Part shown: piece after piece, positions 2,930-63,880 of the stretch
How the letters are laid out: every line of letters begins with the position of its first letter
Position numbering within the stretch: position 1 is the stretch's first letter
Source of the DNA: Opeltia flavorubescens
Lineage: Eukaryota; Ascomycota; Lecanoromycetes; Teloschistales; Teloschistaceae
Assembly: GCA_000442125.1 (NCBI GenBank)
Contig: KE546982.1
Coordinates: 344,608-408,607, forward strand
Direction: 5' to 3'
Length of the DNA: 64,000 nucleotides
The notes under the pieces: generated by a model
Seen by the model: the letters and a program-made list of their open reading frames with translations, nothing else
What the model was told of the DNA's origin: nothing
Database searches by the model: none
Made by a program: the position numbers and the translations under genes

Positions 2930-4690
2930 CTACATACGGTCCGATCCTTTCCCCTCGGGTGAAATTGCATTTCCCTTTGTCCTCGATCTTTGCCCGGCTT
3001 TGTACAATCGGGGCGAAGCGTTCTTTTTCGCCTGGGTGATGGAAGCCTCCCCTTGGCTCGCCGCGGCTGACCCGGCGGCATCCTTCTTCACTGCATTATT
3101 GGAGAGATTGACTTCCTGCGACGCGGCCGGCCCGGAGGCATCATTCTTCACTACAATGTCGGAAAGATCGACTTGCTGTGATCCAGAATCAGGGGAATCC
3201 TCCTCCTTCTCCTCAGGTAGACTGTCTGGATACTCTGACTCGGCGTGGTAAGACCGGGTAGGATCTCCCTTCGCGGAGAAGGCTTGTGATAGCTAACGCC
3301 GTGAGCAGACACAAAGGTAAGGAGTAATCAACTTACTCACATCTTTCACGTACTTGAGAGTCGTTAGCGTTGCGCCCTCATCCTTCACGAGTGGGCTTAG
3401 ATGGGCTAGGTATACCACTGCCGTCTCGGGAGCAAGGAAAGGTTTTAGAAGATTTAGAAGCTGCACCGTGTTACTGATAGTAGACCATTGAAAATCCAGT
3501 TACATTACTTTGTCATGCTTTGCTATCGTTTCTAGTTTCTTCTTCTTCGCTCGATTGACGAGAGCGCTTCGGAGATTCAATCGGCTACTGTTAATGAATT
3601 TGGTTTCTGGCTGTTGATCATTACTGCTCATATCTGGTGTCTCGCTCCCTGCTAGATCAATAAAACAGATTTCGTATTCGCTTTCTCGTGGATAATAAGG
3701 ACTATGAGAGCGAAATCGGAGCATGTAGATGAAATGTCCACGAGAGGAACTTGTGGGGTTTTCATGAGTCGGGCGGCTTGATCGAAGTGCCCACGCTTGC
3801 TGTAATAAGGCAACGGCGTGGCCTCGATCGTTGATAGGATGCTGGATCAGACGTTGAACCTTTGTTCCCTTATCGGCAAGATCTTTAGTACCATCGATAC
3901 TATGCTCTGCGATGCTGCAATGAACATCGGTCTTTGAGACTACCGAAAATCGATGAGAGCTAAGGGTATCGAAATGGGATTCAATGGCCGATTGGATGAT
4001 AGCGTGCGGACCTTGGAACATGGTATAGGATTTACCCGTATTGCTTTGTCCGTCCGCTATAATGCATATCTTTCGCGACGATTTTTGAGAGCTATCCATG
4101 AAGAGATGTTTCAAAACTTTGTTTAGCCGGGCATTACCATAACGTGTATTAAAACGAACATAATAGTTGACCGCAGTATTGATATCGTATCCGGATGCTT
4201 GACTGAGCCGAACATAAGGGGAAGGATACGTGAAGCATTTTAGTTTCAGCGACGTTGGCTCCAGTTCTTCAAGGGCCCTACCCCGAATTCGTACAACAAT
4301 GTAGGTATTTCCTTGAAACTGGGCGACGGATCTGTAGTTGATGTCAACCAGTTCATCTTCATCGAGTTCGAAGGGATCTACAAAAGGTGACGGCGTGCAT
4401 TGCTGTTCAGCACGTGATACTTCTACCTCATCACGGACAATATTCTCGGCAGAATCGTGAACTTCTTCCGGTAAGCCTGCATCTGGAGCGGCGTCCTTTA
4501 CATCTTCCCCAGACTCCGCACTGGCGCTTTGTTTGACCGTATACTCTGATTGGGAAGAGAGATTTGTTGCGTTGGTATCAACTGGTGTTGCGGTGCCGAC
4601 TTGAGATACAGCTACCGGAAGCCATCTCAGGCAATGCCAAGGGCTGAAGAGGAAACAGCAGTCGTAATGCTCGCTTATAGCTTGACGCAT
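2930..4690 (-). CDS. Divergent kinesin-like motor protein, about 554 aa, three exons
   Basis: Predicted exons on the minus strand are 4690-3509, 3460-3341 and 3292-2930, separated by two introns of exactly 48 nt (donors GTAATG and GTGAGT, acceptors GTGCAG and CGTTAG), all in phase 0. An acidic N-terminal region (about 1-125) precedes a motor-like domain. Its parts are an opening strand with RIRGRA (133-139), a P-loop GQSNTGKSYTM (214-224), a switch I-like NPTSSSRGH (311-319) and switch II DLAGSE (345-350). Exon 2 supplies the final strand and helix (LSPLVKDEGATLTTLKY), where kinesins normally have a SP..ET..TL signature. Switch I departs from the consensus NxxSSRSH: it has one extra residue and Gly in place of the second Ser, so ATPase and motility may be altered. 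No long coiled coil or cargo domain is visible. The 120-residue tail is Lys/Ala/Ser-rich with a doubled unit (S-Q-x-V-D/N-L-S). Kinesin superfamily membership is well supported; the subfamily is unknown. The ATG at 4690 was chosen because it is the first in frame. Confidence 0.75.
3293..3340 (-). other. Intron 2 of the kinesin-like gene (48 nt)
   Basis: Donor GTGAGT after the GAT codon, acceptor CGTTAG, phase 0. It joins the end of the motor to a Lys-rich tail frame that stays open to the stop at 2930. Confidence 0.6.
3461..3508 (-). other. Intron 1 of the kinesin-like gene (48 nt)
   Basis: Donor GTAATG follows codon Lys394 and acceptor GTGCAG precedes CTT-CTA. Reading through would stop within two codons. 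Splicing restores a frame whose product matches the expected end of a kinesin motor domain, which is strong internal support. Confidence 0.7.
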
Positions 4691-4852
4691 TGTCACTATC
4701 GGCTTATCGGTGACCGGCGCTTGGTGAAAGCTGCACGGGCTGGCGTTAGCCAGCTTTCTTTACTTGAATCAAAGAGCAGATTGAATGGAAGATTCTGCAG
4801 GGATGGACAATGATATCTATATAAGGAACAAAATTGGTTGCCATCTAAGTTA
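4691..4852 (-). promoter_or_regulatory. Probable promoter of the kinesin-like gene
   Basis: This 162-bp gap separates two minus-strand genes. It contains a TATA-like element (TTATATAGATA on the minus strand, near 4820) about 125 bp before the ATG, and an inverted repeat GCTGGC-GTTA-GCCAGC at 4739-4754. The gap is short, so the promoter may extend into the upstream gene. Functional roles are inferred. Confidence 0.3.
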
Positions 4853-39800: not shown

Positions 39801-40140
39801 TTTTTAATATATATATAATATTTTTAATATTAAATATTATAATCTTTTATAGATTAAATATAATAAATAATTAATATCAAAATTTATATTAAATATAAAA
39901 AGTATTAGATTTATATTTAAAAACTAGAATATATTATTTATTAAATTAATATATTATTTATAAAACGAGATTTTTTTATAGAAATAATATATAAAAAATA
40001 AACTATATTAATATAAATAATTATCGAAATTAAATATATTAAAAATAAAATTATACTAATTTAATAAATTAAAATAATTCTATATAAATTATAATAAATA
40101 ACTAGATTTTTTATATTTAAAGCGTTTTATAAAACGATTA

Positions 40141-40349
40141 TATTATATAATAAATATAAAATAATAGTATTATATTAAAAGTAAAAAACTATTTATCTAT
40201 AAAATCTATAATTAAATAAATATAAATATTAAAAGGCGTTAAATTTAATTAAATAAATTTATTTAAAAGGTTTCCTTTAGGTTATAATAACTATTTAGCT
40301 TTATTTACTCTATTAACTATTTATTTATATAATATTGCCGTAATAAATA
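40141..40349 (-). repeat. 3' LTR of family A copy 2
   Basis: Reverse complement matches the family A LTR core. The adjoining internal sequence resembles that before 32,108. Confidence 0.6.
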
Positions 40350-43300
40350 TCGATAATAAATAAAACTATTAATTTTTAATAATAAATTTTTCTTTATTAA
40401 TAAACGGTTTTTTAATTTATTTCTACTATTTAATATTAGTATTAATATTATTAATAGTTTTATTATATTTTAAAATCGATTTTAAATTAAAATAACGTTT
40501 ATATTTTTTTATTAATATTTTAATATTATTTAAATAATATTCGAATATTTATTAATTATTTTTAAATTTATAACTAACCTAATAAATAAAATATTAAATA
40601 GAAAAACTTTTACTTTTATAAATATAGCGTTTATAAAAAATTTATTCGATTTTAAANTTTTTATTATTATTAATAATAATTAGAGGTATAAATATATAAT
40701 AATATTAATAAAAAATATTATTAAAATTAATAATAGATTTTAAATATACTATTAATATTATATTATAAATTTTTATAATAAATAGTAGCTTTAAATAATA
40801 AATTAATAATTTAATATATTCGATAATTTTAAAAAAATCTACTAATTATTATTTATTTATTTTAAAAATAAATTTTAATATATTATAATTTTAATATAAA
40901 TATATTTTTATAAAATTACTAATTTTAAAATAAATTATTTAATAATCTATATTTCAATATTTTTTTATTTTTATTATAATAAAAATAATAATATTTTTAA
41001 TATTAAAATATATAAACCGGTATCTTTTTATAGCTATTAATATTATAGTATTCTATATTATAAATATATTTATAAATTTACTAATTTTTAAAAAAATCGG
41101 GTTATAATAATAAACTATTTATATTATAGCTAAAAAAATAGCTAGTTTTTTAATAAAAGCGTCGATAGGAATTTTAAAGCCTAATACCTTTTTTAATTAA
41201 ATAATTTACTTAAAATTTAGTAAATATAAAAGGTCTAATATTTCACAAGTTTTAAATTTAAATAATATTTAATTAGGTATTTTAAATATAAAGCTATAGT
41301 TTATAAAATTATTAAAAACTATTAATATCTATAAAAAAATAATAAATTATAGCCTAAAATCGTTTAATATAATAATATAATAGTATATAATAATTTTAGC
41401 AGTTTAATTAAACTATTCTAATATATTATTAATTTATAAATACTAAATAATAGAATATTATAAATCCACTTTTAATATTTTAAATATCTAATATTATAAC
41501 TAGCCTATAAACTTTCTATTATAATCTAAAATTATTATTTTTAATATACTTTAATTTAGTTTTACTAATTTATTTAATAAATATTCGATTTATTATTTAC
41601 TATTTTAAATAATTTTTATAGATATATAAATAATTATTTTAATAAATTTATTTATTATTAATATATAATAATTATATCCTTTATATAATTTTAGTAGAAT
41701 AAAAATAAAATCGATAATAAATATATAAAATAGTTTTATTAGATTAAATACTAGTTATAAAATTTTATATAAATAGTAATAAAATATTTAATTAACTTAA
41801 TACTATAAATAATAGCGAATAAATTTATATAGTTTTATTAATATATTATATATATAAAAGCTTTTTATTAAATATTTATATATATATATATAATTAGAAT
41901 AGTTTATTTTATTATATATTAACTAAAATCTTTTTTTTCTATATTTATAAATATTACTAAATATAAACTTTATTTATTACTATTAAAATAGAATAGCGCG
42001 TTAATAATATAATATAATAGTTTAATAATATTATTATTTAGTTTTATATTAGTTTTAATAACTTTTTTAACTTTAATTTAATAGTTTTTTTTTATATATT
42101 TATCGATTAATTATTAATAGAATTCAGTAAATATTTTTATTAAATTTACCGGGAAGTAATATATTATAAAGGCCTTTATATCTAGTAATTCGGTTATTTC
42201 TAGGCGGTATTTATAGCTAGCGAGCTTTAATAATATATCTAAAACTATATTTATAATTTTAAATTTATAACGAATATTAAATTTAAAATATTAAAAATAT
42301 TTAAAAATTTATATTAAACGGAAGTTAAATTTTTTTATAAATATTATATTTAAATTAATTTAATATAAAATATTAACTATAATAAAATAGTTCGTATATA
42401 TAATAATAATATATTTAACTATTTTAATTATATAGCGGATTTTTTTAACTATTTAAATAATATTTATAACTTTTAATTTTATAAATTAATAACGTATTTT
42501 AATATTTAATAATAAGCGGTTAAAAAATAGAATCGATCGTTTAAATTTCTAATTAAATTCTTCGCCTATTTTATAAATAGCCTTATTTATATTATAATAA
42601 ATATAAATTATAAAACCGAATTTTTTACTAATATCTAGATTTATATATAGTATTAAGCTTTTATTAAAATAAACTAGAATCGATAATAAAAAAAAAAGCT
42701 TTTATAAATAATAAAATATATTAAATTTTTTAAATATAAATACTACTAATAGATTTTAAATAATAGTTTTTTTATAAATATTATTTTTAACGGTAATATT
42801 ACGGTTTATATAAATTTTATATTTTTAGAATAATTTAATAATAGCTATATTATTATTAATATATTATTAAAAGTAGCCTATTAAATTAAAATATTTTTTT
42901 AGCTATTAAAGCGTATATAGAAATAAAAATTTTAAAATTATTTTTAGTTTATTTTTTATTATAATAAATCTAAAAGTATTAATTTTCTAATTTAATAAAT
43001 ATATAAATATATAATTAATAAATAATTTTATAAATAATAAATATAAATTTATAATACTAAATATATTAAAAATTTAGTTAAAATATTCCGCGTATTTTTT
43101 TATTAAAAAGGAAAAAACTATAATATTATTAATATAAGTTTTATAAAAAAAACGAAATAAATATAAAATTTTATCTATTATTTATTATAAATAAACTAGT
43201 AAAAATTATAATAGTTTATTATCGGTATTTTAAACGTTTTTTACCTTTAATATAAAACTATTATTAGGCGGTAGTAATACTATTCATTAATCTATTATTA

Positions 43301-49504: not shown

Positions 49505-50275
49505 CGATATATTAAAGAGCTTTATTGGATATTTGGGAACAGTATTTGCCTGGAGTTCTAACCTTGACTGCCCAAGTTGTTTTCCGTGGGTGTGGCGCTG
49601 TAAGCAGGCAAAGCAGTTTGAAAGCACTGGAGAGGGAGCCTACAGTATCGAGGAGCACCGAAGTACTTAGGGAGTGTGCATGGTGTTCGTGTCCAAAGTC
49701 GGAAGAAAAAGATGACGTCACTAAGGCTCCCCTGGCAGCCCGAGGCGGAATGATTCCGCTTCGCGGGCAGGCCGAGGTTGTTTTCTCAATGTTCGCCGCA
49801 GTCCGTCTGCTCACAACTCGCACTTCGCATCTTCATGGCAAAGCCAGCGATGAAAATCCTAGGCTTGTTGAATCACAACCCAAATGCTGATGAATAATGA
49901 TGGTCTGGGGAAATAGTCCTGATCGGAGGTATCAGACATATCCACTTGCTCCTATGGAGCCGGCCCCGGGACTCTTTATTCACATTCTGCAAAGGATTCA
50001 CTGATATTCCCCTCCATCGGATGTAAGCTCATCAAGCACTTCATGCACTGCATATAGGACTCACTTCAGCTGGTCGCTGGACTCCGCTGCATCGGTATGG
50101 GGGAAGTGACGGTGGGGTTGAAGCAGGTACGGTAACTCAGATCGGAAGGAGCGCTCGGTCATATTCTCATTTCCACGAACATGTTCAACGCTTGGCCGGG
50201 TGAGGCAATTTCGCTTCAACATCAAAACTACCTTTTCTGTACTAGCTTCACATTACTCTCTCCTCGCCTCCAAAG
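49505..50275. other. Right border of the AT-rich block and probable Ulp1-gene promoter
   Basis: Composition switches to balanced within about 30 bp at 49,505-49,530, much sharper than the left border. Overlapping frames on both strands at 49,512-49,890 lack true ATG starts or motifs. Pyrimidine-rich stretches from about 50,160 to 50,270 just before the ATG at 50276 resemble a fungal core promoter and leader. Confidence 0.45.
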
Positions 50276-53077
50276 ATGACTTCTTTTTCAGCTCAGGATC
50301 TTGCCGTTCAGTGCCAGAATTTGTCAGCGAAGAAATGTCTTCAGGTCTGCTATGACACGGTTGTTTCACACTTGCAGAAGGCAAGAATTCAAAGCGCCGC
50401 GTGCGCTGTAGCTATAGAGCGGACGTGTTCTTATCTGCGATCGGAGGAGACTCTTGGGAGATTCGGCCCCGGCACTACCGAGCAATGGATTGTATGTCTC
50501 GAAGAAGAGCACGGCATCAACAGCATCCGGAAACAAATCACAGCCGGTTTACGGTACAGAAACGCTATGGCGGCGGCAGAGGCCACGATCATGGCACACT
50601 GGCACATCCCCCTCCACGATGTCTTCATCCATGACTCCTTCACCAAAAGCATCTCCCTATCCCTCGCCAAGAGCCTTGGTCGCCTCGCCAAGATCCTCCC
50701 ACTCACTCAGGCACGCACCGAGATCAAGAGCGCTATCACCCTTCGGATCGAAAACACAGGCAGCACATTGAACCACGCCTGCCCCCGGGACATTACAAAC
50801 ATCCTATCACGACTGCGGGAAGAGAAAGGAGGTCATGAGAATCGTGTGGAGGATATGGAAGACCAGGATTTGGAAGAGAAGTGTCAGAGTCTTGAAGATG
50901 AAGACGTAGAAGAGGAGTGTCAAAGCCTTGAGAATGAAGCCGGGGAAAACGAAGGTCACAGGCTTGAAGTTGGAGACTTGGAGTGGGAAGGTCAGAGGCT
51001 TGAAGATGAGAACTTGAACGAGCGAGGTCAGAGGCTTGAAGTTGAGGATTTGGAGGAAGGTCAGAGCTTTGACAATGAGCACCTTGATCCACGCGATTCC
51101 GATCAAGATGAAGAGCCCTCGCCCGTCAATCACGCGGCTACCAAAATTACCCAGCGAAAACGTAAACACAAGGCCAGCCATCATCTCTATCAGCCAAGCA
51201 AGAAGAACGTCAACAGGAATTCCACTCCAGTGCCACCGATTGAGGTTGCTCGGCGGGCACCCTCCTCTCTCCCCTTCGGCACGCCTTCAGATGATCGGAT
51301 CGGAGAAAGTACGTCGACCAGTCCTATCGATCCGCATGACTCCAGTCCCCTCTCACCAATTGGCGCCGCCAATATCTCAGCCTCACCGGTCTCCTTTATT
51401 CCGGATGTCCATGATACAATCGACGCGGGCTTTCCGACCGCTCAAAGAAGAGGACTGCACCAGTCAGGCACAAGAGGAAGCGTTGCCGTCGCAAAAGGCG
51501 GCAATCTCGTGGGAGATGCTCTGTTGCCGGGGAAGAGCGAAACCTCACTGGGGTCCGACTGCTGTATACTGGATGACCGTAATAAGGTTGCTCCCCAGCC
51601 GGCGACTTCATCCCTGGATTGTGTACCCAACAACACCGTCGAAGGTGCTCAGACGTCGCTGGCTCCGGGTAAGATGCTTTCGACCACGGCCATCCAGTTG
51701 ATCCTCCATATGATCGCCGACGGCATAGGATACTGCTACGACCCAAGCTACTTCAACGCCGATGAACCTCGAAAGATCAGCGTTCCCAACCGGGCCCCGG
51801 ATGCCCGGCTTTTGATCTTGCCGTTGAATCGTCGCAGGCATTGGACAGTAGCCTTATTCGATCGGGAAGACCATAGCATCGGGTACTACGATCCTTTGCA
51901 TGGCAGGACCGGAGCGGCTTCGGAAATGTCTCTGTTGCTCAAACACTGGAACCAGATCGACGAAGGCAACGAGTGGACATCAAAGCATATATCTGGCCCT
52001 CAGCAACCCAACCACGAGGACTGCGGAATCTACGTCCTCGTCACAATCTTCTACATCGCAGCGCAGCGAGTCCCTCCCCGTGATCTTGACGGTGATCTGT
52101 GGCGGTACATATTTCGAGATTCCTTGAGAGGCACATCCGACAGGCAGAGTATTCGTACACTCGTGGTCGCACGCAGCAAGCTAGGTGGGCTTTCTATCCA
52201 TTCCCTATCCCTTCATTCCGACTCGGTGAACCTCCTGTGACGATATACTACAGATGAAGAAGTAACCGTATCGGTACCAACGTCCTCGACCTCCGTGCGC
52301 GAAACTATATGTATCTCCGTCTCTTCAATTGCCCACTCCGTCGGCCAATGCCGGCAGCAGCTTTCAACAGCTCGAGCCATTCATGTCGAACGCACCTCCA
52401 TCGTCGATCTGATCACCCACATCCATCAATGCGCTGTTACGACCGCTGCCTCGGCACGTCAATCGCACGACTGCGACGTTGAGGAATACGACAAGCACAC
52501 GGTCATCATGCGGCAATACAACGCCCTTGGTACCATGCGACAGGAGAACATCTGGCGACTCATGCAGGCGGAGTCGGCCAAGGTCGAGCGACGTATCAAA
52601 GTCGAAAAGGCCAGAGCGGAGGATTGCGAGAAGCGGGAGAGACAGCTGGCGACTGGACTGTCCACGGCTAGGTTTGTCATTCATTCCTGTGCTACCTACT
52701 CCTTCACTCCATCACATGTTCGACGCCTGAAGCCTGGTAGTCTCTTCATCCACCGCGATCCTGTTTCATTCCCTACTCATCCTTTCTCCTTCCTTGCTCC
52801 CCCTTTTCTCCTTTCCTCCACGCGCTCCTTTCACTTTACTCCCTCCTCTCTCATGTTCTCCTGTTCCTCCATGGCCCTCATCCCTGGTGCCTCATGTCGC
52901 TTATACTTCGTCTTCCCACGCAGGACCGCACTTTCCCAATGGGGACTCATCGTTCAAGACCGGGAATCGTGCCTCAAGTCTGCGATGCAGGAGCTTACGG
53001 GCCTCAAAATTGATCTTAAAGAGCAGCTGGAGAGGCTTGATGGTATCGACCTCACGGATCTTGTTGCGATAACCTGA
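50276..53077 (+). CDS. Ulp1-like (C48 family) cysteine peptidase with repeat region and coiled-coil tail
   Basis: Predicted exons are 50276-52184, 52254-52671 and 52924-53077, giving about 826 aa. The N-terminal 190 residues are helical and unassigned. Residues 198-268 hold six copies of an acidic 12-residue repeat (DLEEKCQSLEDE type). A basic patch (QRKRKHKA, 293-300) may be a nuclear signal, and a Ser/Pro-rich linker follows. The C-terminal peptidase part shows the Ulp1 signature: His522 (RRRHWTVALFD), Asp539 (IGYYDPL), the oxyanion Gln577 (GPQQPNHEDCG) and nucleophile Cys583 (EDCGIYVL). All four catalytic positions are present, so activity on SUMO- or NEDD8-like conjugates is plausible. 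Exons 2 and 3 add a tail with a Lys/Glu/Arg-rich coiled coil (around SAKVERRIKVEKARAEDC). Without splicing the first frame would stop at residue 654. The architecture differs from the housekeeping Ulp1 and Ulp2 enzymes and resembles expanded accessory C48 families of fungi. Substrate unknown. Confidence 0.75.
50867..51080 (+). repeat. 36-bp tandem repeat inside the Ulp1-like gene (about six copies)
   Basis: In-frame degenerate repeat coding for 12-residue acidic units ending in SLEDE, SLENE, RLEVG, RLEDE, RLEVE and SFDNE. The last copy is one codon shorter. Copy number probably varies between strains because the unit is in frame. Confidence 0.8.
52185..52253 (+). other. Predicted intron 1 of the Ulp1-like gene (69 nt)
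   Basis: Donor GTGGGC, acceptor TACTACAG, phase 1. It bypasses the stop at 52238-52240 and joins a downstream frame that would otherwise have no good start. The donor is non-optimal, so an unspliced 654-aa product is the alternative. Confidence 0.5.
52672..52923 (+). other. Predicted intron 2 of the Ulp1-like gene (252 nt)
   Basis: Donor GTTTGT, acceptor CCACGCAG, phase 2, with a very long pyrimidine-rich stretch (about 52,740-52,880). The length is a multiple of three and it has no stop, so retention would insert 84 low-complexity residues. The composition break on both sides favours an intron. Confidence 0.55.
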
Positions 53078-53493: not shown

Positions 53494-54712
53494 TCAATCT
53501 TCCAAACGGCACTCCCACTCTAATTGCTCTATACAACACATTCGCTGTTCGTCCTCGGCGATGTCCTGACCCCAAGCGGGAAAGAGACTCTTCATCTCAC
53601 TCGAATTTACCGCGCCGCCGTGCTCCTGTATATCATCTAACCACTGCTGCTCTTTCTCCATGTGCTTCCTCCACCGACCGTGTGGACCAGATCTGGCGCG
53701 CTCGGCGGCAATGGCGGACTCGTATAGGGCTCTACTGGCCTCGCGGCCTTCGTCCCAGCTGCTGAGGGGTCCCGAAGATTTTGGGTCGTTGCCGCCACTT
53801 GCAATGCTTTGTGAGCTTGTAAGGTTGGGGAGTTCTTGGTGGGATCTGCTCTCCGGTGCCGTAGGGGTCGCGGCATCGGGGTTGCGGATACCATGGTGTT
53901 CCTCCGATGCAACTCGAGCGCGTTCCACAGCCGTCCCACGGTCGTCTTCCCCATCGTTCCTGACTCTCGTCTTGAGCGCTTGGTGGTAAGTATGGGTAGG
54001 CTCGGGGTTCGTGATGCGCTTTGGTTGGCAGGCTTCCATGAACCGCCGTACTTATAGCACTCTTCGGCATCGACAAGCTCAGATGTGCCGCTCTCCACCC
54101 GCAGCAGATGGCACTCATGCCCTTATTGTAAAAAGCCCGAGAGCATCGTGAAAATTGCCCGAGCGAAACGAGCGGACATGCATTCCCGTGCGACTCCGAG
54201 ATGATGGAGTCTAGCATTGTGGTAGAGATCAGCCAATCCCTTGGAGTAAGCCAATACATGTGTATCAAACTCGGCGCCTCCGTTTGCATTGTGTTTCGGT
54301 GTGTGGACAAATCGCATCCTGTCCCAGCCTCGATGCAAATCCGTGCGGAGGAGCATGGTATTCGATGTATCATTGATCCCCTGCCTTCCCCCATACCTAG
54401 TACCCCATATCAATTCATTCGGTTGTCCTGATAGCATTGTACTTCAGCGAGAGGGCAAGTGACGGTTATCGCACCCCTCTGTATAAGCAGTCATCCGGCA
54501 TAACGGGTCCTGTAAAGCAATAGCGTCAGAGCTTGTATTGAGAGCCAAAGTCCCAAAGAGCCGGCAGGTATTTCGGTTACTACCTTGCAAACAGACTTAA
54601 CCATACCTTCGATCTATATCTGATTTCAATAGAGTCGCCTTGAAAGCGAGTCGAGCCGCGAGAACTTTCTCACGAATCTGGTCGTTGAAATCAAGTCAGG
54701 AGAAATCCCGCT
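53494..54712 (-). pseudogene. Relic of a fungal HNH-domain protein gene
   Basis: Minus-strand pieces in order: 54,700-54,607 (helical stretch around REKVLAARLAFKATLLK, ending at an AG-GTATGG donor); 54,510-54,440 (DPLCRMTAYTEGCDNRHL, the Cys/His entry to an HNH fold); 54,390-54,123 (INDTSNTMLLRTDLHRGWD and RMRFVHTPKH, the second half); and an Arg/Glu-rich C-terminal part to 53,494 (around AERARSGPHGRWRKHME). This order matches ascomycete proteins with an HNH_2-type nuclease domain. The pieces lie in different frames, and a TAA interrupts the frame just after SGFLQ near 54,120, with an upstream CAA-to-TAA type context typical of RIP. I therefore call it a pseudogene. Splicing could explain one of the shifts but not all of them. 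Confidence 0.55.
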
Positions 54713-55740
54713 TGAGGAGATGACAATACACGTCTCCACTCTGGTGTATGGGTCTTTGATTCCTTCATCCACCAATTATCACTGCCTGATATCTCCTAGC
54801 ATCGCGGGCGGTGAGACGGTGTCGACTTTCCTTGCAGCGACAACACACTACCTCCTTAAGGACCCACAGCATTCGGGCTACTCGCGCCTTTAAGACGGGA
54901 TCCGCCAACGGTACAGCACGGAAAGCGAGATTGACGCTCAGACCGCGCAACAGCGACCATACCCACAGGCCGTTAATTCAAGAAGGCCTGAGAATCTGCC
55001 TACCGGACAGTCAGGGTTTCCCCCGACTGAGTCAAGGGCAGACGAATGACGGACGGTTTGTGCCCAAAGGGGTGAGCACTAATAATTTTCCCAGAAGAAC
55101 CCGTCCTTTGGAGGCGAAATAGATGAATGCTAATGTGAGATTCGACGGAAGAGTACACAAGTGCATGGACCGTCACACACGACGAGCGCAGTACCCCCAA
55201 TCCTATGACATTCAAAGCAGAGGGCTGGCTTGATGGCGACACCGAAAATGTTAGACAGCCGAGTCAACTGTTCGGCCTGGGACCAAGAGGGTGTTTGGGT
55301 CGGAAGTAGGTCATGAAATCTCGGCGTGACTGGAAATTTGGTTTCCATTTCGGATGTTATGGCTTGAGTAGCCTGACCGATTTGGCTTTGGCAGAGACAG
55401 TGAGCCTTGCTTTCTTTGAGCACCGCCACTGGTCCTAGTGGGGATCTAAAAATCCATACTCTGGAGCGAGATCTTGTGCACTTCTCCGTTATGGAACACC
55501 CCGATTACATCATCCCAACTTGTATCCCCTCAATGACCCACCATCTCCTCATTATATCCATTCCGATCATTTCAACACCCCTTATCTCCTCTCATGATCT
55601 CTTCTGCAGCTCAGCCCCTACATTGTCCCCAGGCGCCAAAGTTAACGTACCCTTGCGCCTCGAGAATATCTTCCTTTCCACCTCCTCTTTTCACTCCCCC
55701 CCTCTTTGAAAGAACCCTGTACTCTCTAAGCAACGTCACA
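54713..55740. other. Region with no assignable gene
   Basis: A 99-codon minus-strand frame (55,429-55,130) with several Cys and a 61-codon one (54,950-54,765) lack motifs I recognise. They could be further debris of neighbouring relics. Plus-strand frames here are low in complexity. Confidence 0.35.
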
Positions 55741-55854
55741 ATGAAAGCCATGTACTCCGATTGGGCGAATTTTCGACCTAGGCAAGCTGGGGCACCGTCG
55801 GAGAAGGTGAGGAAGGTTCCTCGTGGACGGCCGGTGGTTGATAGTCGGTTCTGA
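55741..55854 (+). CDS. Possible small ORF, 37 aa
   Basis: An ATG in good context (GTCACAATGAAAG) follows about 120 bp of pyrimidine-rich promoter-like sequence. It opens a 37-residue basic peptide (MKAMYSDWANF ... GRPVVDSRF). The start region looks like a genuine fungal gene start, so this may be the first exon of a lost gene or a small secreted-free peptide gene. No family known. Confidence 0.25.
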   Translation: MKAMYSDWANFRPRQAGAPSEKVRKVPRGRPVVDSRF

Positions 55855-56199
55855 GAAGTAGAAGTATTGGCGTTGGTTTCGTTTGAAATAGATGGGTTTG
55901 TCCAGCGGGTGGGGTCGAGTGTGTGAGCGTCTGGCCAGTGTTGCTCTGTGTGGTGGGTTGCAGGTACGTTGAGGTAGACTCTGCATCCTGTAGGAAGGAG
56001 TACTGGCTTAGATCCTTCGGGCGTGGTGACCTTGACGGGAGTTGGGCGGGTGACTATCTTCGTGATCTGCTGTGGCGCGGGAAAAAGGCGAAGGGTCTCG
56101 TGCTATTGTGGCATCGCACATTAGCTGTTCAGTCACTCGAGGCGACGAACTCTCCTCACTTGCTTTCGACATGATGAAAACACTCACCATGAACCCATA

Positions 56200-57195
56200 T
56201 GTGTAATTCAACTTGTCGAAATCGTTCGTGTAAGTAAGCTTCATTGGCCGTCGTCTCGTATCTCGCCAAGAGGTGAAGGAACAGATTACCCGTCACCTCC
56301 GTCTCGGTGAAGGCTTGCTTCTTCGTCGGCGCTGCCGTTGCGTTCTCACGCTTCCCGGCAACTTTTGCTTCATCGGCGGAGGCGCGTAGGACAGATGTAA
56401 GCAAGTTTCCGCGGGCGGATCCTGGAATGTAGCTATTACCACCATAGCTACTGTGGACCTCGTGCTTTTCCGATCGTATCATCTCCTGCATATAGGCTTC
56501 AAACTCCTCTTGCGCAATGGCTGCTGTTCTCAAAGGACTCATATATATCATTCATCGCGGTAGGAGCAGCACAGGTATTGTGTTCGCCATCGTGGTTGTC
56601 ATCGCGTCCAGGAAGCCAGATGTATAGCCGGTTGGAATTGCATTTGCACTGGCGCTCAACGTACCTTCGTTCCATTCGAGATCTCGCCTAGAATCGTTTT
56701 TGGCAATCACCGCAAGCGTCAGACCAAGGAGGATGGATGATACCAGACAGAGGCCAGACGGCGCATCTGTAGCTTCGTTTCATGCCAGACAAGGTCATTG
56801 GCCCCTGTACTGTCGGCAAAGGGAGGAGCTGTGATACGCAGATGGAAACGGAAAGCTGTAGTCGTCACATTTGGACCATAGATCTCGAGAAGCTCTATCA
56901 AGATGAAGACTGAGTCAGCTACGAGGTATATAAAGTACCGGCGATGTTGAGGAAAAGATGGCAGGAAAACATTGAGCAACTGACTGTGTTTATCACGCGG
57001 TTTTGTGAACTCATTCCTTCTCTTCATTGCGTCCCAGCCCATCGGCGCATCATACACGCAGCAAACACCTCGCCGTTTTCATCATGAGCTCTGCGCTTGT
57101 CCTCGAACGACCAATCTTTGATCATCAACCGGCACCATCGCGGCCACCCTTTCCCCTCGAGTAAATGGTTGTGATACATCCATCGGAGAATTGGA
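56200..57195 (-). pseudogene. Cytochrome P450 relic 1, N-terminal anchor and C-terminal half missing
   Basis: Minus-strand pieces follow the P450 order. First comes a start-like stretch with WPRWCRLMIKDWSFEDKRR (57,150-57,090). Then EFTKPRDKH, a stopless intron of about 80 nt ending TTGATAG, and EIYGPNVTTT with FRFHLRITAPPF (helix C region, near 56,840). Next is IPTGYTSGFLDAM with YMSPLRTAAIAQEEFEAYMQ, and finally TETEVTGNLF followed by LLARYETTAN, the helix I oxygen-binding motif (56,260). Beyond helix I the similarity stops: the ExxR and heme-Cys segments are absent. The usual membrane anchor is also absent, and the start abuts the acyltransferase relic. At least one frame change separates the pieces. 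As a heme monooxygenase it would be dead. It was probably part of a secondary-metabolite pathway. Confidence 0.65.
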
Positions 57196-57196
57196 G

Positions 57197-58260
57197 TCAA
57201 GATGTAGCATATCTAGCAAAATGGTCAAAGGCTATATGAAGCGACGAGATATCCGGGCTGCTTGCTGCCAGTCGTATTGCCTCAGAGAATATTTGACAAT
57301 TCTTAGCAATGTAGACATTGCGTCTGATGCCGGTTGCGACTGAGGACAATGGTGTATTGGGCGATAGGACTGTAGAGATGGGTAAGCGTGTCATGCAGCA
57401 GAAAATCACATTGCCAACATAAAATGGTGATAGTGGTGGGTCGAGGATCCTGCCACCGTCAATTGCATCCGTGGCAATAGAGTCTCGGCTTTCATCTCAG
57501 GCCTGACCCTTTGAAAGGGGGAAAGCGAGCGCGCGGTATGCTTACCCAGAGCAAAGCCACGAGTGCGTCGCCTGAAGAGATGCAACCTGGTCCTTGTGGT
57601 GCACTGTCTTGTTTGAGCCGCTGGATTGATTGAGAGCTGAAGGTGAAAAGGCATGTCTTGGTCTCGGGGCTTCCCGGAGCGGTGGCAGCGGCTGGAATAT
57701 ACTGAGATTCTCTTCCCGGATGAATTGAAGGCTGCCTTTGGAGGTTCTCTGGAGCGTGCAGGCCCAGAAGATGCCAAAGGTTAGTGCTACCCTTTAGCTC
57801 GTCATATCTTGCCTTTGATCTGGTCTTGTCGATTCCTGGCGATGTGAATTGCATTTGTATGCGGTCACCTTGTACCTTCCTGTTCGTAGGATCCTGCGGT
57901 TCCCGGCAATTCTGAGACCATCTTTTAAGAATTGACGAGCTTGCTCTTGCATCGGCAAATGAATGGGAGCAGCAGAAGGAAAATCAAGCAGCCACCGGGA
58001 ATCAGGTTGATCTGNGCAAATACGACTTCATTCGTTCTTTCAAGGTCAGCAGTTAAAGGTGCCAGAATCTTAGTACCAAGCTTACCTTGAGCCTTTATAT
58101 CACTGCACGAATGGTCCCATCCAGAATGACCCTTGGTAAGATCATTGACAGTCCAGAAGTTATGAAGGTAGTGCTCCATGTACCCAAGCTTTAAAATACC
58201 GGGGCGTAGACCTGAAGCTTGACTCGAATCAAAATGAGGCTTAGAGGAGTTTACAGTCAT
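57197..58260 (-). pseudogene. BAHD-type acyltransferase relic
   Basis: Minus-strand pieces match fungal O-acyltransferases of the transferase family that includes trichothecene acetyltransferases. TVNDLTKGHSGWDHS precedes INLIPGGCLIF and the catalytic HSFAD (HxxxD, near 57,940). TCLFTFSSQSIQRLK and SSGDALVALLW follow (near 57,580), then IDGRRILDPPLSPFYVGNV (near 57,430). The C-terminal DFGWG block is absent and the gene ends at P450 relic 1. HSFAD lies in a different frame from the preceding GGCLIF, and another shift separates SSGDALVALLW from the IDGRR segment, so it is broken. One base at 58,014 is ambiguous. A minus-strand frame at 58,486-58,241 (LYDFSLLDESIPPLHQ) may be its N-terminal part. 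Confidence 0.65.
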
Positions 58261-58499
58261 CCAGGGCCTTTTCCCAGACTACATTGTATTTTTGCTCCAA
58301 TGTGAGGATGAAGGCCTGGTGGAGAGGGGGAATACTCTCGTCCAGTAGACTGAAGTCGTACAGACGGTGCCGAGCACCGAGATTTTCCCGCGAGCCCTGG
58401 ATCACACCGACGTCGTTGTTTGGTAGTATCCAGGGACAGCAGATTTTCCAAGGTGACCGTCGAACATGTGTAGCTCTGACAGACAATACTGCACCATCC

Positions 58500-58990
58500 T
58501 GCGAGCTTACGCGATTATCAAGTAAACTTAGGGAGGAACGCTAGCCTTTCTTGTCCTGGGCTTTAGAGCCTCCTTTCCGCCATGATGCGGGCCTCTCTGC
58601 ATAAATTTAGTCGGCAGTGCAGAAGGCAGGAAAGTCCTGAGAAACCCCTGATTGATCCTTATCACAGGCTTCACGTCAAGCACCCAACTCCGGCGGAGAA
58701 CATAATCACAACCCTCTCCATCCCCGAATCTCGGGCATGCCATCGGGTCGCAACGCAACTCTAATGGCGTCAGGATTCTTCTACGCTCCTCGACGACTTT
58801 CGAAACTGAATGCNGCAGTGTACACATTCTCGTGTTCGTGTGGTTGACAATGATTCTACCATTACCTTCCCAATTCGTTTTAGATCGTCAAAGTATTGAA
58901 GTCTTCGTGAAGCGATAGCTGGCAGCTGAAATGGGCGAGGATTTATGCAGCGTCGACGTCTTTGCTGGTGCGGTTACTGACTTGAACGCC
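58500..58990. other. Gene debris of unknown origin
   Basis: A minus-strand frame (58,827-58,528, one ambiguous base at 58,814) with a Glu/Arg-rich start (VVEERRRILTPLE) is open but unrecognised. Its position between the acyltransferase and P450 relics suggests further cluster debris. Confidence 0.3.
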
Positions 58991-59345
58991 TTGTCCACAA
59001 TCCCGCCCCCTCACTTCTTCGTGCCCCTTGTCCCAGACCTGACAGTCTCATTGACAGTCTTAGCCGGCGCCCTCTTCTCCTTCTTTGCTCCGGCGCCACT
59101 TCCCTTGGGGCATCCCTTTCCCTTCTTCGACGGCTCGAAAGAGGAGACTATGTACCCACCCACTACTTTGCCTGCTTCATCAAGAGATCAACAGCCTACA
59201 AACCGCATCTGCTGCTCTTCTCCGAGAGTTTCCTTCGGTTAGTCAGCCTTCTTTGTTGCGCCTGGTTTCCGACCAGCTGTCTTCTTCTCTTTCGCTGGAG
59301 GAGCAGGGGCAGCGGCGACTTTGGGAGTAGCGCTACCCTCGGACT
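58990..59345 (-). pseudogene. Lys/Ala-rich, AT-hook-like protein tail
   Basis: Minus-strand stretches APAPPAKEKKTAGRKPG and, after a stop and some 100 bp, KKGKGCPKGSGAGAKKEK and RAPAKTVNET. Both resemble the basic C-terminus of a chromatin protein with AT-hook-like GRKPG/GxPKG cores. This is unlike any P450, yet it runs on in frame from P450 relic 2. Either two unrelated genes were fused by a rearrangement or the similarity is composition only. Confidence 0.35.
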
Positions 59346-60935
59346 GACTCAAAAGCAGCGGATCAAATCTCTGGCAATCTTTCATGAAGCTGTCCATCTT
59401 CGTCAGTTGCTTCAACGATTGTTTGCTCATCACTCCGCTGTGCCTAGCCATAACTTCTTCAATCTCCTCCCTGCGAGGCGCAATGTACTCGAGGCGAGCG
59501 CAAAGGTCGAGATGGCGCTGCAGCGCTCGTGTGAATCGCCGCAAAACTCGGTTTGAGCTGGATGGTCGCTACAAACTCCTTCTCAGCCTCCTCCCCTTTC
59601 GCGCTATCCAGCATCCATTGAAGGAAGTCCATTGACCAGGTCTTCATTCTCGCCCGATCTTCGAGGATGGGCACGATGACACGCTTGGCAGTGAGATGGT
59701 GGTCCTTGATCTTTGTGAGAGCTGGCATGGAGCGGGAAACGAGCGGCCTGATGAAGTGGGGATACAACTCGAGTCAGTCGTCGAACCATGATCCATAACT
59801 CGTCGGTTTAATCACCTTCAGTTTGGGGCAAGTGAACCTTGAACGCGTCCTCGATTGCTTCGTTGACTGGAGCTGGAGTCTCGTCCAAATGTTGGTTTAA
59901 TTGCAGCTTGGCGACACGTGGGTACGGCGTCGAGCGATTGCCCATTGTCGTGTATTTACCCCCGAACATCTATCGCAACATGAGCTGTTGTATCTCCTTG
60001 ATCGATGGGGCAGACTTTACCTCGAATTAGTGGGCCAACAAAGTCAACCTCGTTGACCGGAGCCGGTTTGAGCTCTTCTACATACTTGGGCGGTATCATC
60101 AGACGTTCTCCCAAAGGAGTTTGTATGTCAAGTGGCCGGGCCTTGTACAGTACTAGGTCAAAAGTCTCCGCGACACCCCACTTTTACACCAAAACCAATA
60201 CATTTCAATTCCATATATCTGCACAACTCGGTATGTAAACCTTCTATTTTTAGTTTTATATACTAAAATAATCATTCAAACTCTCACTGTATAAATATCA
60301 AATATTGATTTTCTAAGGAGTCGAAATAGAATAATCTGTCGAAGAATAACCTCGTTATAAAACCGCGATTCTACGCGTAAATTTCGCGTTTTTAAAGTGG
60401 TGATGAGTACTAAACAACCCTAGAGGAGAATAATGCTGTTATAAGCTTAAAGAAGAAGATATATAATTAATAATCTTATTAAGAACTACAATCCTTAAAT
60501 ATTTTATAACATTCTGTTAACTGCGTTATCTGTTACCGGCTTGCGAACATGGTCACTTTTGGTGTAAAAGCGGGGTTCGCGGACACTTTTGACACCCTAC
60601 TGTACTGTTGATCGCCCTCCCTAAGCGCCATATCAGCGCCATGTCTGAATCGTCGCCTTGCCTCTGCGAGAGTACATTTGTCGATACAGGCGAATGGTGC
60701 ATCTGCGTATTGCTGCCTCTTTGGCTTGCTTGCCCGAGCAATCTGCGCAAGGACGGCGATGAGACACACGAAGGCATGGAAATACGAATTGGTATTGGTA
60801 TGGGAAAGCAGCCCAGGTACGAATACTTCTACCCATCGCTGGAGGAATATAATGGCGACTGTACAGACGAAGGCGTAGAGAAGAGGCTCGGCGTCAGCGA
60901 GGAGCGATAGTACTGACGGAGGGAGATGATGACTA
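59345..60935 (-). pseudogene. Cytochrome P450 relic 2 (ent-kaurene-oxidase-like group), split by a MITE
   Basis: Minus-strand order: a hydrophobic anchor (LLYAFVCTVAIIFLQRW, near 60,880), ARRRFRHGADMALREGDQQ (to 60,605), the inserted MITE, then KARPLDIQTPLGERLMIPPK with YVEELKPAPVNEVDFVG (60,144-60,030). These are followed by KYTTMGNRSTPYPRVAKLQL with HLDETPAPVNEAIEDAF, YPHFIRPLVSRSMPAL, KDHHLTAKRVIVPILEDRAR, FLQWMLDSAKGEEAEKEF and FAAIHTSAA, which replaces the usual helix I motif in this group. The last part is EEIEEVMARHSGVMSKQSLK and KMDSFMKDCQRFDPLLL (59,350). After FDPLLL the sequence switches to an unrelated Lys-rich tail, so the ExxR-to-heme half is missing. Frame changes occur after FAAIHTSAA and near DFVG. 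Dead enzyme, formerly oxidising a terpenoid-like or other lipophilic substrate by family analogy. Confidence 0.7.
60148..60602. mobile_element. 455-bp MITE with about 48-bp terminal inverted repeats, TA target site
   Basis: The left end CAGTACTAGGTCAAAAGTCT is the inverted counterpart of the right end, whose complement reads CAGTAGGGTGTCAAAAGTGT. The match continues through TCCGCGA, ACCCC and CTTTTACACCAAAA. TA flanks both sides (60,146-60,147 and 60,603-60,604), as expected for the Tc1/mariner/pogo superfamily. The interior is AT-rich and non-coding, so this is a non-autonomous element. It sits inside P450 relic 2, and removing it with one TA joins GATCAACAG to TACAAGGCC in frame, so the insertion point is precise. 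Confidence 0.8.
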
Positions 60936-61059
60936 CTCGTAATGCAATCGCGCCTTCCCCACCAGCGAGGATTATACATATTAGATTCTTACATAGCACG
61001 AATCCAAGCCAATCTCCATCGTCATCATTACCAACAGCGGAGGCATACGCTACACCCAA

Positions 61060-62065
61060 TTGCAGCAGCATCAAAAGCTCGGATACAGAGAGCTGCCCTT
61101 CCAAGCAATCAAGGGCTACAATCCAGCTACCGATATTCCCAACCTGTCAGGCAAAACGCTCTTGATCACTGGTGGTAGGTCACTGGCTGACTCCTCCATT
61201 TGTTGACCTAAAAATCACCAAGAAGCTGATGAGGGTCTCATCCTCAGGAACGAATGGCCTAGGTAAACAGGCCATCCTCACTCTATCCAAACATTTCCCG
61301 GGACGCATCTTCTTCACGGGTCGCAATGCTACAGTCGCCAATGAGATCATTGCAACTCTCAAGAACCTGAATTCCAACGTTCAAATCTGAACCAGCTCTC
61401 CCTCGCCTCCGTGCAAAGTGCAGCTCAATCATTCCCCTCACAGGCCTCCAAACTTGATGTTCTGATCATCAACGCCGGCGCCATGGCTACCGATCCCGCC
61501 CTCGGCACGGACGGGTACGAAAACCAATCCGCCACCAACCATATTGCCCACGCTTTGTGCGTCAGACGCCTTCTTCCCACCCTCAAGTCCACAGAGAGCG
61601 CTGGAGGAAAGGCACGTGTCCTCTTCTTCACCTCGCTGGGGTTGATGTATCCTTTCCCTGGTGGTGTCCAGTTTGAATGCCCTCAAAACCACTCAAGACT
61701 TCGGTCCCGGCTCGCAATGGGCCCGCTAGGGCTAGAGCAGGTTGGCTAACGTGCAGTACCCCACGGAACTGGCACGACGTTACCCCGATATTACCTGGGA
61801 GAGCCTGCATCCAGGGAAGGTCAACACGGATATCATTGGGCGCTTGAAGCCAGACCAGAAGGAGCTATTGCACCAGATGAACAAGGTGATCGTGGAATCC
61901 GAGGAGGGCGTTTACAACACGTGCTGGGCTGCTACAACGAAGAAGACTGATCTCGTGAATGGAGAGCTCTACCTCCCTGTGGGACATAAGGGTGAGCAAA
62001 CAACCGAGTCGGCGGACAAGGAGCTGCAAGGGAAGTTATGGGAATGGATCCAGAAGGCGTTGTAA
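61060..62065 (+). pseudogene. Short-chain dehydrogenase/reductase relic
   Basis: Plus-strand pieces in SDR order. PNLSGKTLLITG ends at 61,174. A 73-nt intron (61,175-61,247, GTAGGT to CCTCAG) follows, then GTNGLGKQAILTL, completing the TGxxxGxG cofactor motif. FTGRN comes next, then SKLDVLIINAGAMA (NAG motif, 61,470) and ARVLFFTSLG. The active-site segment near 61,720-61,750 should read YGQSK. Here it is TAG-GGC-TAG-AGC-AGG, so the catalytic Tyr and Lys of YxxxK are both lost. LANVQYPTELARRYPDITW and LHPGKVNTDI follow to the stop at 62,065. There is also a frame change after NVQI (61,390) and another after 61,660. The second TAG fits a CAG-to-TAG change of RIP type. By family, an NAD(P)-dependent oxidoreductase; now dead. 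Confidence 0.75.
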
Positions 62066-62213
62066 GCTTTCATCTGAGCGGTTATCTTCCTTCAAGAAGA
62101 TTTACGAGGAGCTGAGCTTGAGTTGTAGTCATGTTGCAGTATCATTCAATATTGAATACTTGCTTCGAGTCCTATTACAATGTACGGAAGGTTCTCCTAC
62201 AGTCAATGCAATC

Positions 62214-62483
62214 ATGGATCTTCTCAAGAGTCTATTACCCACAGCATTGTCTAGCAATCATGGCAATATGGCGAAACGTCGTCACAATGAGCCCGATCAA
62301 AGCCCAGACATCATATGCATGACAGAAGCTGACTTACGCCCCTCAAATAGAGTGCGACGCTTCCTTGAACGGTGTCTGGATCACCCTGAATTGGCTCTGT
62401 ATGATGATGATGATGAAGACCATCCATTTCTTCTAAATGCTTTCGACAAAAAGCTTTGGTTCATTTTCACGAGCGGACGGTAA
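62214..62483 (+). CDS. Hypothetical protein, 89 aa
   Basis: Frame from ATG (MDLLKSLLPTAL) through a basic stretch MAKRRHNEPDQ and an acidic run YDDDDEDHPF to ending FTSGR. The charged, non-repetitive composition looks protein-like, but no family is recognised. It is downstream of the SDR relic in the same direction. It could be part of a larger lost gene, because the frame is open well upstream. Confidence 0.3.
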   Translation: MDLLKSLLPTALSSNHGNMAKRRHNEPDQSPDIICMTEADLRPSNRVRRFLERCLDHPELALYDDDDEDHPFLLNAFDKKLWFIFTSGR

Positions 62484-62875
62484 TGGCTTTCTGCTCAGGA
62501 CTGACAAGACTAGGTGAAAGGTGACGCAGGACAGTGTGCAAGGAGAGCTCGTGATAGATCAGATCTGTAATCAAGAGGATTGAAAGATGAATGGATTCTC
62601 CTTGAAGTCATATTGTGCCTATCTCTCGTCCCATGAGTAATACTCATGCTAGAGCCAACTATCGCATTCCCTTCCCGTTGAGGATCTTCGTCCTTCATCA
62701 TCCACGTGAACTATATTCGACTTCGATAGGATGATCATTGGTTATGTCCTACCATCCTCTCACGCCAGCTTACTCCGCACTCTGAAGCTGATCCGACCCT
62801 TCGGTGGCAAAGCACTAACAAGCCAATAGCTCATATCGGGCTCTGGCGTCCAATCATATGCCAGCACCGTCGTAA
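62484..62875. other. Intergenic, no gene seen
   Basis: About 390 bp between the 89-aa frame and P450 relic 3 on the other strand. A 63-codon minus-strand frame has no recognisable motif. Confidence 0.4.
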
Positions 62876-63690
62876 TCAGTAGATACTCAACTCCAGGCGT
62901 TCTCGAGGGTATTTGGTAGAAACAGAACCAAGAGAGTCCCCATTTACCTTTCGGGCATTGTGAGTTGAAGGTCGTACGTATTGACCAAGATAGCCAGCGA
63001 AGCCAGCATCTCGTTCTTCGCGAAGAACCTCCCCGGGATATATCTTTACACCGCCGCCAAAGGGAACAAACGCACCCATGGTCCCAGCTAAGGAAAACAC
63101 CGGTTTGCCCTTCTGCCCTGCCTTCAGCTCTCCATCGCCTCCTTTCCCCCCCTTCTCAAAATCCACCCTCTTCTTTCCGTTACTCACGTCGCTTTTCTCC
63201 AACCCCGCCTCTGATACCAGTCGCTCAGAATCCTTCCCGCCTAGACCTGGAGTGGCAACTTTCACCGGCACACTCATCCTATCGTCCTCGTACTTCGAAA
63301 ACCGTTCCGCCCAGAAATCATCCACATCATGGTACTCCTCGTTTGCGCCGCCGCCCGTATCCCAGCTGAAAGATTGTACTGCCCTTCTTGAACAGCCATT
63401 TTCCCAAGCGGTAGTCGGTCTTCTCGGGCAAACGCCTCGGCACTACGGCGATGCGGAGGCACAGAGTCTCTGCGTACACGGATTGGAGCAGTGGTTGGGA
63501 TGCTAGGGAGGGGAGGTTGAAGGAAGGGGCGTTTGTGGCGGGGGAGACGGAAGAGAGAGTACAGGTAGAGAGAGATCTCGGAGCGGGCGCGAGCGAGGAG
63601 GGATGGGGAACGTAGGAATTCGAGGATGAAGTAGATGGTTGCGGGAACGGCGTTGGCGTGGGCGCCAATCGACTGCAGGACTGGTGCAGC
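62876..63690 (-). pseudogene. Cytochrome P450 relic 3 (CYP7-like fungal group), C-terminal half only
   Basis: Minus-strand pieces from helix I onward: HANAVPATIYFILEFL (near 63,640), SPSLLARARSEI, and in another frame PSFNLPSLASQPLLQSVYAE with TLCLRIAVV (helix K, near 63,460). PEKTDYRLGKWLFKKGS follows, then in a third frame WDTGGGANEEYHDVDDFWAE (near 63,320) and the heme region FVPFGGGVKIYPGE (near 63,055). Two essential positions are lost: the ExxR arginine is Cys (ETLC) and the heme-ligand cysteine is Tyr (KIYPG where family members have KICPG). Frame changes add to this. The group resembles fungal P450s often annotated as oxysterol 7-alpha-hydroxylase or prostacyclin synthase-like. The N-terminal half is absent: just beyond 63,690 a P450 N-terminal piece runs the other way. 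Confidence 0.75.
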
Positions 63691-63696
63691 ATGGAG

Positions 63697-63880
63697 CTCT
63701 ACCTGGGCATATCCTCAGTCAAGTTCTTTGCAATGGCGAAAATCGCGCACGAGGGCTACGTCAAGAATGGCCGCAAAATGCTGAGGTTCTGCAATTTGCC
63801 GATGACACTGTGGATGGTGGAGATGTGGTTGGCCGGTCTCGGATTTAGCTTCCTAGCGATCCGATCGACCCTCAAGTAAG
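63697..63880 (+). pseudogene. N-terminal fragment of another cytochrome P450
   Basis: Plus-strand frame SVKFFAMAKIAHEGYVKNG followed by RKMLRFCNLPMTLWMVEM matches the early region of fungal P450s, where a GYxKYG..F motif precedes the first beta sheet. It lacks a membrane anchor and no helix C or I follows before the window ends. It may continue past the edge, or be a fragment joined head-to-head with relic 3. Confidence 0.5.

Follow-up and report, generated by a model that had tools for sequence, protein, structure and literature searches.

Relics of P450, acyltransferase and dehydrogenase genes beside an AT-rich block of Opeltia flavorubescens: a probable dead secondary-metabolite gene cluster

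A stretch of 64,000 nucleotides from the genome of Opeltia flavorubescens (contig KE546982.1, here C18; C18:344608-408607), hereafter the window, contains a run of decayed enzyme genes between ∼54.6 and 63.7 kb. In order, these are a cytochrome P450 (P450-A, plus strand), a second P450 (P450-B, minus), a BAHD-type acyltransferase (minus), a further P450 (P450-D, minus), a short-chain dehydrogenase (SDR, plus) and a last P450 (P450-C, minus). Their sequences suggest that they are probably the remains of a dead secondary-metabolite cluster of a filamentous fungus, lying beside a 41-kb block of the type left by repeat-induced point mutation (RIP). A filamentous fungus is consistent with an apparent intron, the number of P450s and the base composition. 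The genome searched amounts to 34.4 Mb in 23 contigs, and positions given without a contig are those of the window. A first-pass annotation, made from the letters of the window, had described relics of at least three P450s, a BAHD acyltransferase, an SDR and an extra P450 fragment within 8 kb, none of them intact. The named families could be confirmed, and none of them showed an intact frame; the evidence lies in Pfam matches and in alignments that score above the antisense control for all six relics, least clearly for P450-C. The 8-kb group is also real, but it starts ∼1.6 kb further left, with P450-A at 54636-55304 and the C-terminal part of P450-B at 55613-56100. There is good support for three P450s and a fourth is probable, in keeping with that description. 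The features are as follows:

54636..55304, plus strand: P450-A relic, I-helix to heme motif (alignment and Pfam)
55613..56407, minus strand: P450-B relic, C-terminal half (Pfam and alignment); N-terminal extension to ∼57212 by eye
57226..58417, minus strand: BAHD-type acyltransferase relic (alignment, Pfam Transferase, HxxxD)
59014..59343, minus strand: Lys-rich fragment of another gene (two other genomic places)
59239..60988, minus strand: P450-D relic (59367-59773 by alignment and CYP51 chains; 59808-60988 by eye only)
60145..60605, no strand: inverted-repeat element of 461 bp, resembling a miniature inverted-repeat transposable element (MITE) (inverted arms)
60997..62063, plus strand: SDR relic (alignment, Pfam adh_short)
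62939..63711, minus strand: P450-C relic (heme part 62939-63172 by alignment; 63328-63711 by eye only)

In an alignment tolerant of frameshifts and stops, each relic was set against relatives from the same genome, namely 33 P450 loci (30 Pfam P450 loci and three relatives of P450-D, chosen for likeness to it), three BAHD loci and four SDR loci; each locus was represented by its longest open frame, taken unchecked. The same DNA on the other strand served as control, each score being compared with the best antisense score of any query, and ten letter shuffles per query formed a separate control. The best score and the antisense score were 426 and 40 for the SDR (locus L031), 190 and 41 for the BAHD relic (L026), 138 and 49 for P450-A (L003), 133 and 57 for P450-B (L047), 104 and 52 for P450-D (L019), and 77 and 57 for P450-C (L019). 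The aligned length exceeds 130 codons for most relics and is only 73 codons for P450-C. Frameshifts or stops are required in every best alignment, and in the stop-to-stop frames the enzyme-family pieces switch frame repeatedly. Since the relatives are 26-41% identical, the lesion counts given below are rough; the alignment has no intron model, so that some frameshifts or stops and larger insertions may be introns.

Pfam was applied to 55.5-64.0 kb in six frames, with X at the stops, and also to pieces joined by X. The six-frame scan returned P450-B, an SDR match under the cut-off and a sub-threshold DUF6013 match (E 0.016), and nothing else. When all open frames of the loci under comparison were matched to the region by plain tblastn, P450-A, P450-B, the BAHD relic and the SDR were supported, and P450-D only at E 8e-4. 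Near 63.5 kb, non-P450 frames also match in the same search, with E values down to 3.5e-7 without composition correction, which indicates that this stretch is prone to chance matches.

The SDR relic displays the clearest homology. Between 61241 and 62063 it shares 110 identities over 266 aligned codons with L031, at the cost of three frameshifts and two stops, and adh_short is matched with E 7.7e-14 when the pieces are joined by X and with E 0.001, under the cut-off, in the six-frame scan. The YxxxK site, which is YGQSK in L031, reads stop-x-x-x-Arg here; the alignment leaves the homology clear but the catalytic Tyr is a stop, and the gene is an SDR relic that does not encode a working SDR. 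The start of the gene (60997-61175) was read by eye, save its end, which is matched by relatives, and the TGxxxGxG cofactor motif, also seen by eye only, is split by a presumed intron at ∼61176-61248. The BAHD relic requires four frameshifts over 367 codons. It matches Pfam Transferase with E 4.4e-5 and 22.7 bits, exactly the curated cut-off, when its pieces are joined by X, and among solved structures it matches hydroxycinnamoyl transferase (best E 8.5e-4). The HxxxD motif is kept as HSFAD (∼57951-57965, minus strand), in a frame that differs from that of the preceding piece; the DFGWG motif is not present in the longest open frame of its relative L026.

Among the P450s, P450-A needs two frameshifts and one stop over 176 codons, and is matched by Pfam p450 with E 8.5e-7 (pieces joined by X) and weakly by P450 chains of the PDB (best E 0.0022). 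P450-B gives the strongest Pfam p450 match, with E 5.5e-18 at C18:400311-400709 and 3.1e-20 for the joined pieces; its best alignment covers 55613-56160 with three frameshifts in 163 codons, a second locus (L043) scores 122 up to 56407, and the relic matches CYP51 chains (best E 9e-5). Motif reading suggests that the heme Cys is kept in both P450-A and P450-B. P450-D aligns over 59367-59773 with one frameshift in 131 codons, and matches CYP51 chains with E 2e-6 over 128 residues. In the same genome it matches a P450 at C2:1415245 (E 4e-5), C17:134704, which lies beside a P450 match (E 2e-4), and C2:105336 (E 6.5e-5), a locus outside the P450 list. It yields no Pfam match even with joined pieces, no recognisable heme end was found, and the best alignment of its N-terminal part (59808-60988) scores 54 against 52 for the antisense strand, which is not above the control. 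By motif reading, P450-C has Tyr in place of the heme Cys (FGGGVKIYPG); its heme part at 62939-63172 requires two frameshifts in 73 codons, and one shuffle hit reached 61. Further upstream, at 63328-63711, the scores of 62-63 do not exceed that of a match to the wrong end of L047 (63). Pfam places P450-C at model positions 334-415 with E 0.034, under the cut-off, and against solved structures no P450 is found, the one match (E 1.5) being at chance level. To judge from their motifs, P450-A may resemble the isotrichodermin-hydroxylase type, P450-D the ent-kaurene-oxidase type and P450-C the CYP7-like P450s. Between the SDR and P450-C, an 89-codon open stretch from an ATG (62214-62483, plus strand) has no Pfam match.

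The P450-D gene bears two further disturbances. The 461-bp element at 60145-60605 interrupts the N-terminal part read by eye; its ends are inverted (34 bases at 79%, 20 at 95%), and as a whole it matches only itself among the genome matches listed, so that no MITE family emerged. The Lys-rich fragment at 59014-59343 sits on the minus strand where the end of P450-D is expected. Its kin at C16:1313070-1313330 and C21:526999-527232 are 67-80% identical, and together they form a small duplicated family.

Whether these relics once belonged together was judged from their density and their relatives. Six relics of three enzyme families lie side by side, P450-C being the weak one. The 100 listed P450 stretches of the genome correspond to ∼86 genes, a lower bound because 92 of 144 candidates were scored, and elsewhere among them no 9.3-kb span contains the starts of more than three, a number reached in three places. 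When 89 genes were placed at random, four P450s within 9.3 kb arose in 1 of 20,000 placements, and three within 6.4 kb, as remain without P450-C, in 252 of 20,000. The tendency of fungal P450 genes to cluster is in its own right a sign of metabolite clusters, and the presence of an SDR and a BAHD gene among the P450s strengthens the case for a cluster. The first-pass annotation had called the set typical of the tailoring enzymes of a terpenoid, polyketide or alkaloid pathway. The group is indeed decayed and denser in P450s than chance would give, and all six genes may have belonged to one pathway.

Several observations weigh against a former cluster. Support for P450-C is weak, and without it the density equals that of three other places in the genome. 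The random-placement test takes no account of the tendency of P450 genes to cluster, and its gene number comes from the 92 candidates scored out of 144. The closest relatives lie dispersed over C1, C2, C3, C11, C13, C14 and C17, being C1:481895 for the SDR, C13:1159243 and C11:345455 for the BAHD relic, C3:340661 for P450-A, C14:1416940 for P450-B, and the three loci named above for P450-D. Such scatter of best hits had been named in the first-pass annotation as the sign that would contradict it; although formally seen in this genome, it is undecisive, because relatives only 26-41% identical are distant paralogues and not orthologues, and say little on the ancestor. Unrelated pieces, the Lys-rich fragment and an HNH_2 domain match at the left edge of the relic group (∼54309-54389, minus strand, E 8e-5), are also present. 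Finally, no Pfam match to a backbone enzyme, transporter or regulator was obtained in six frames of 49.5-54.4 kb, 55.5-64.0 kb or the 9.9 kb to the right of the window.

The Lys-rich fragment that recurs on C16 and C21, the HNH_2 match, the inverted-repeat insertion and the scattered relatives would all suit a gene junkyard, in which unrelated pseudogene fragments gathered at the edge of the AT-rich block without ever having served one pathway. Against this stand both random-placement results, the BAHD and SDR genes between the P450s, the length of most relics and the lack of any close source copy found in the genome, and the junkyard is accordingly considered unlikely, though it survives better than the other alternatives. 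An origin of the relics by recent local duplication is not supported: relatives of P450-D, the BAHD relic and the SDR are at most 38% identical in a six-frame search excluding self-matches, and no relative at E ≤ 0.001 is listed for either the P450-C pieces or one of the P450-A pieces.

The number of P450s would fall to three if P450-C and P450-D were parts of one rearranged gene, an arrangement hinted at by their common best relative L019, which they match in different parts (residues 152-307 for P450-D, 370-446 for P450-C). However, both seem to include the K-helix region, into which the sub-cut-off Pfam match of P450-C falls and where the CYP51 alignment of P450-D ends. Their order is moreover wrong for a single minus-strand gene, and the SDR lies between them, so that this arrangement appears improbable.

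The decay is probably local. Among P450s elsewhere in the genome, those at C10:103709, C7:1617276 and C16:1346376, for example, each span more than 400 of the 462 model positions in a single frame without stops, and ∼2.4 kb to the left of P450-A the frame at 50246-52240 stays open for 664 aa. Of the 100 listed P450 stretches, 84 are without an internal stop, a weak control as the P450-B stretch is itself among the 84. An intact cluster that looks broken through assembly errors could draw on two single Ns in the region (58015 and 58814), but these open frames and the kind of lesions, among them altered catalytic residues, the 461-bp insertion and the piece of a foreign gene, make such errors very improbable.

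The AT-rich block extends from ∼7.7 to 49.5 kb. Its GC content is 12.6% over 8000-49300 (∼41 kb), with one kilobase down to 2.7%; only 5% of its C bases precede A, as compared to 26% in the right arm of the window, and its TA/AT ratio is 1.18 as compared to 0.62 (0.44-1.01 per kilobase). The near-absence of CpA and the high TA/AT ratio mark the block as an AT-isochore of the RIP type. Both arms flanking it have ∼50% GC and are without a RIP mark, as are the relics themselves, ∼5 kb from the end of the block. That RIP spread out of the block and killed the genes, as its proximity and CpA depletion might suggest, is hardly credible and finds no support in view of the unmarked arms, the CpA share and TA/AT ratio of the right arm and the many lesions that are indels.

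With regard to the backbone, the genome-wide search covered three families, ketoacyl synthase, condensation and Terpene_syn_C_2. On C18, none of the three has a listed match within 300 kb; ketoacyl-synthase matches are listed on that contig only at 39877-40737, ∼360 kb away, and the other two families have none on it. The absence of a visible backbone synthase in the first-pass annotation is thus borne out for these families, and the dead cluster is so called by its tailoring set only. That annotation had considered the backbone to lie possibly beyond the window or to be lost, and pointed to the next 30 kb. In the first 9.9 kb to the right, Pfam in six frames returned only a BIR domain and no backbone gene; in the following 29.7 kb, where open frames of at least 130 aa were read by eye, no such enzyme was recognised. 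The four 9.9-kb stretches of C18:408600-448200 (L010-L013) hold seven ATG-started frames of at least 200 aa, a region which is gene-poor or whose genes are small or intron-rich. Elsewhere in the genome, 9 of 16 listed condensation matches fall in one open frame of 6899 aa (C11:169714-188103), a giant non-ribosomal peptide synthetase.

The dead cluster could have arisen as follows. Neighbouring tailoring genes, three to four P450s, one BAHD acyltransferase and one SDR, would once have modified a small molecule, and the backbone gene may have been lost from the neighbourhood or belong to a class outside the three searched. After selection was lost, small indels, stops and altered catalytic residues would have accumulated in the genes, and the short inverted-repeat insertion and the junction with a fragment of another gene would have added to the decay; this order of events is inferred. 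The product may be guessed to have been a terpenoid, at somewhat less than an even chance, the sole and weak hint being terpene-cyclase matches near distant relatives of P450-A and P450-D: C3:340661 lies ∼2 kb from such a match at C3:338128, which holds stops, and C2:105336 lies ∼1 kb from one at C2:106593. It is doubtful, a long shot at best, that the relics are the last trace of an undescribed terpenoid-type cluster in which an acyltransferase and an SDR accompanied four or more different P450s, and which was lost after coming to lie beside an expanding RIP block. A literature search for a cluster with this enzyme set found no relevant paper, and one on relic clusters listed mostly work on gas vesicles.

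Dead clusters are established in fungi, examples being the bikaverin cluster of Botrytis cinerea (PMC3538735) and the zearalenone clusters of Fusarium (PMC6480918). In B. cinerea B05.10 and T4, the backbone gene is likewise missing, the cluster is recognisable in place, and stops and small deletions are found in two of the enzyme genes. The bikaverin case differs in that other strains, and also Fusarium, are known to have a working cluster, and that genes for regulator and transporter persist, whereas neither was found here in the scanned stretches. The zearalenone clusters of the Fusarium incarnatum-equiseti complex are described as partial, with pseudogenes, and as accounting for a patchy distribution; unlike the relics described here, among which no backbone relic is seen, they keep a pseudogenised polyketide synthase. 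In Leptosphaeria maculans (PMC4210507), metabolite genes are tied to RIP-mutated AT-rich blocks, but here the genes lie beside the block, not inside it, and are dead.

The scan of 49.5-54.4 kb in six frames gave the HNH_2 match and, beside the AT-rich block, the open 664-aa frame, which lies on the plus strand and carries a Ulp1-type (C48) peptidase domain. On the other side of the block, a kinesin motor domain at 3500-4759 (minus strand, Pfam E 1e-18) spans only profile positions 74-271 of 327 and is perhaps truncated. Rfam at gathering thresholds gave no match across the window. The AT-isochore at 7700-49500 is possibly the centromere of C18; centromeres inside AT-rich regions longer than 30 kb are reported in PMC9910759.

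The finding is ordinary in kind, and alone it changes no general view. It provides a small, fairly clear case of the loss of fungal chemistry, in which a tailoring set appears to be decaying in place near a RIP-type block. Should an intact orthologous cluster be found in a related fungus, the relics would be of help in dating the loss and in predicting which compound disappeared.

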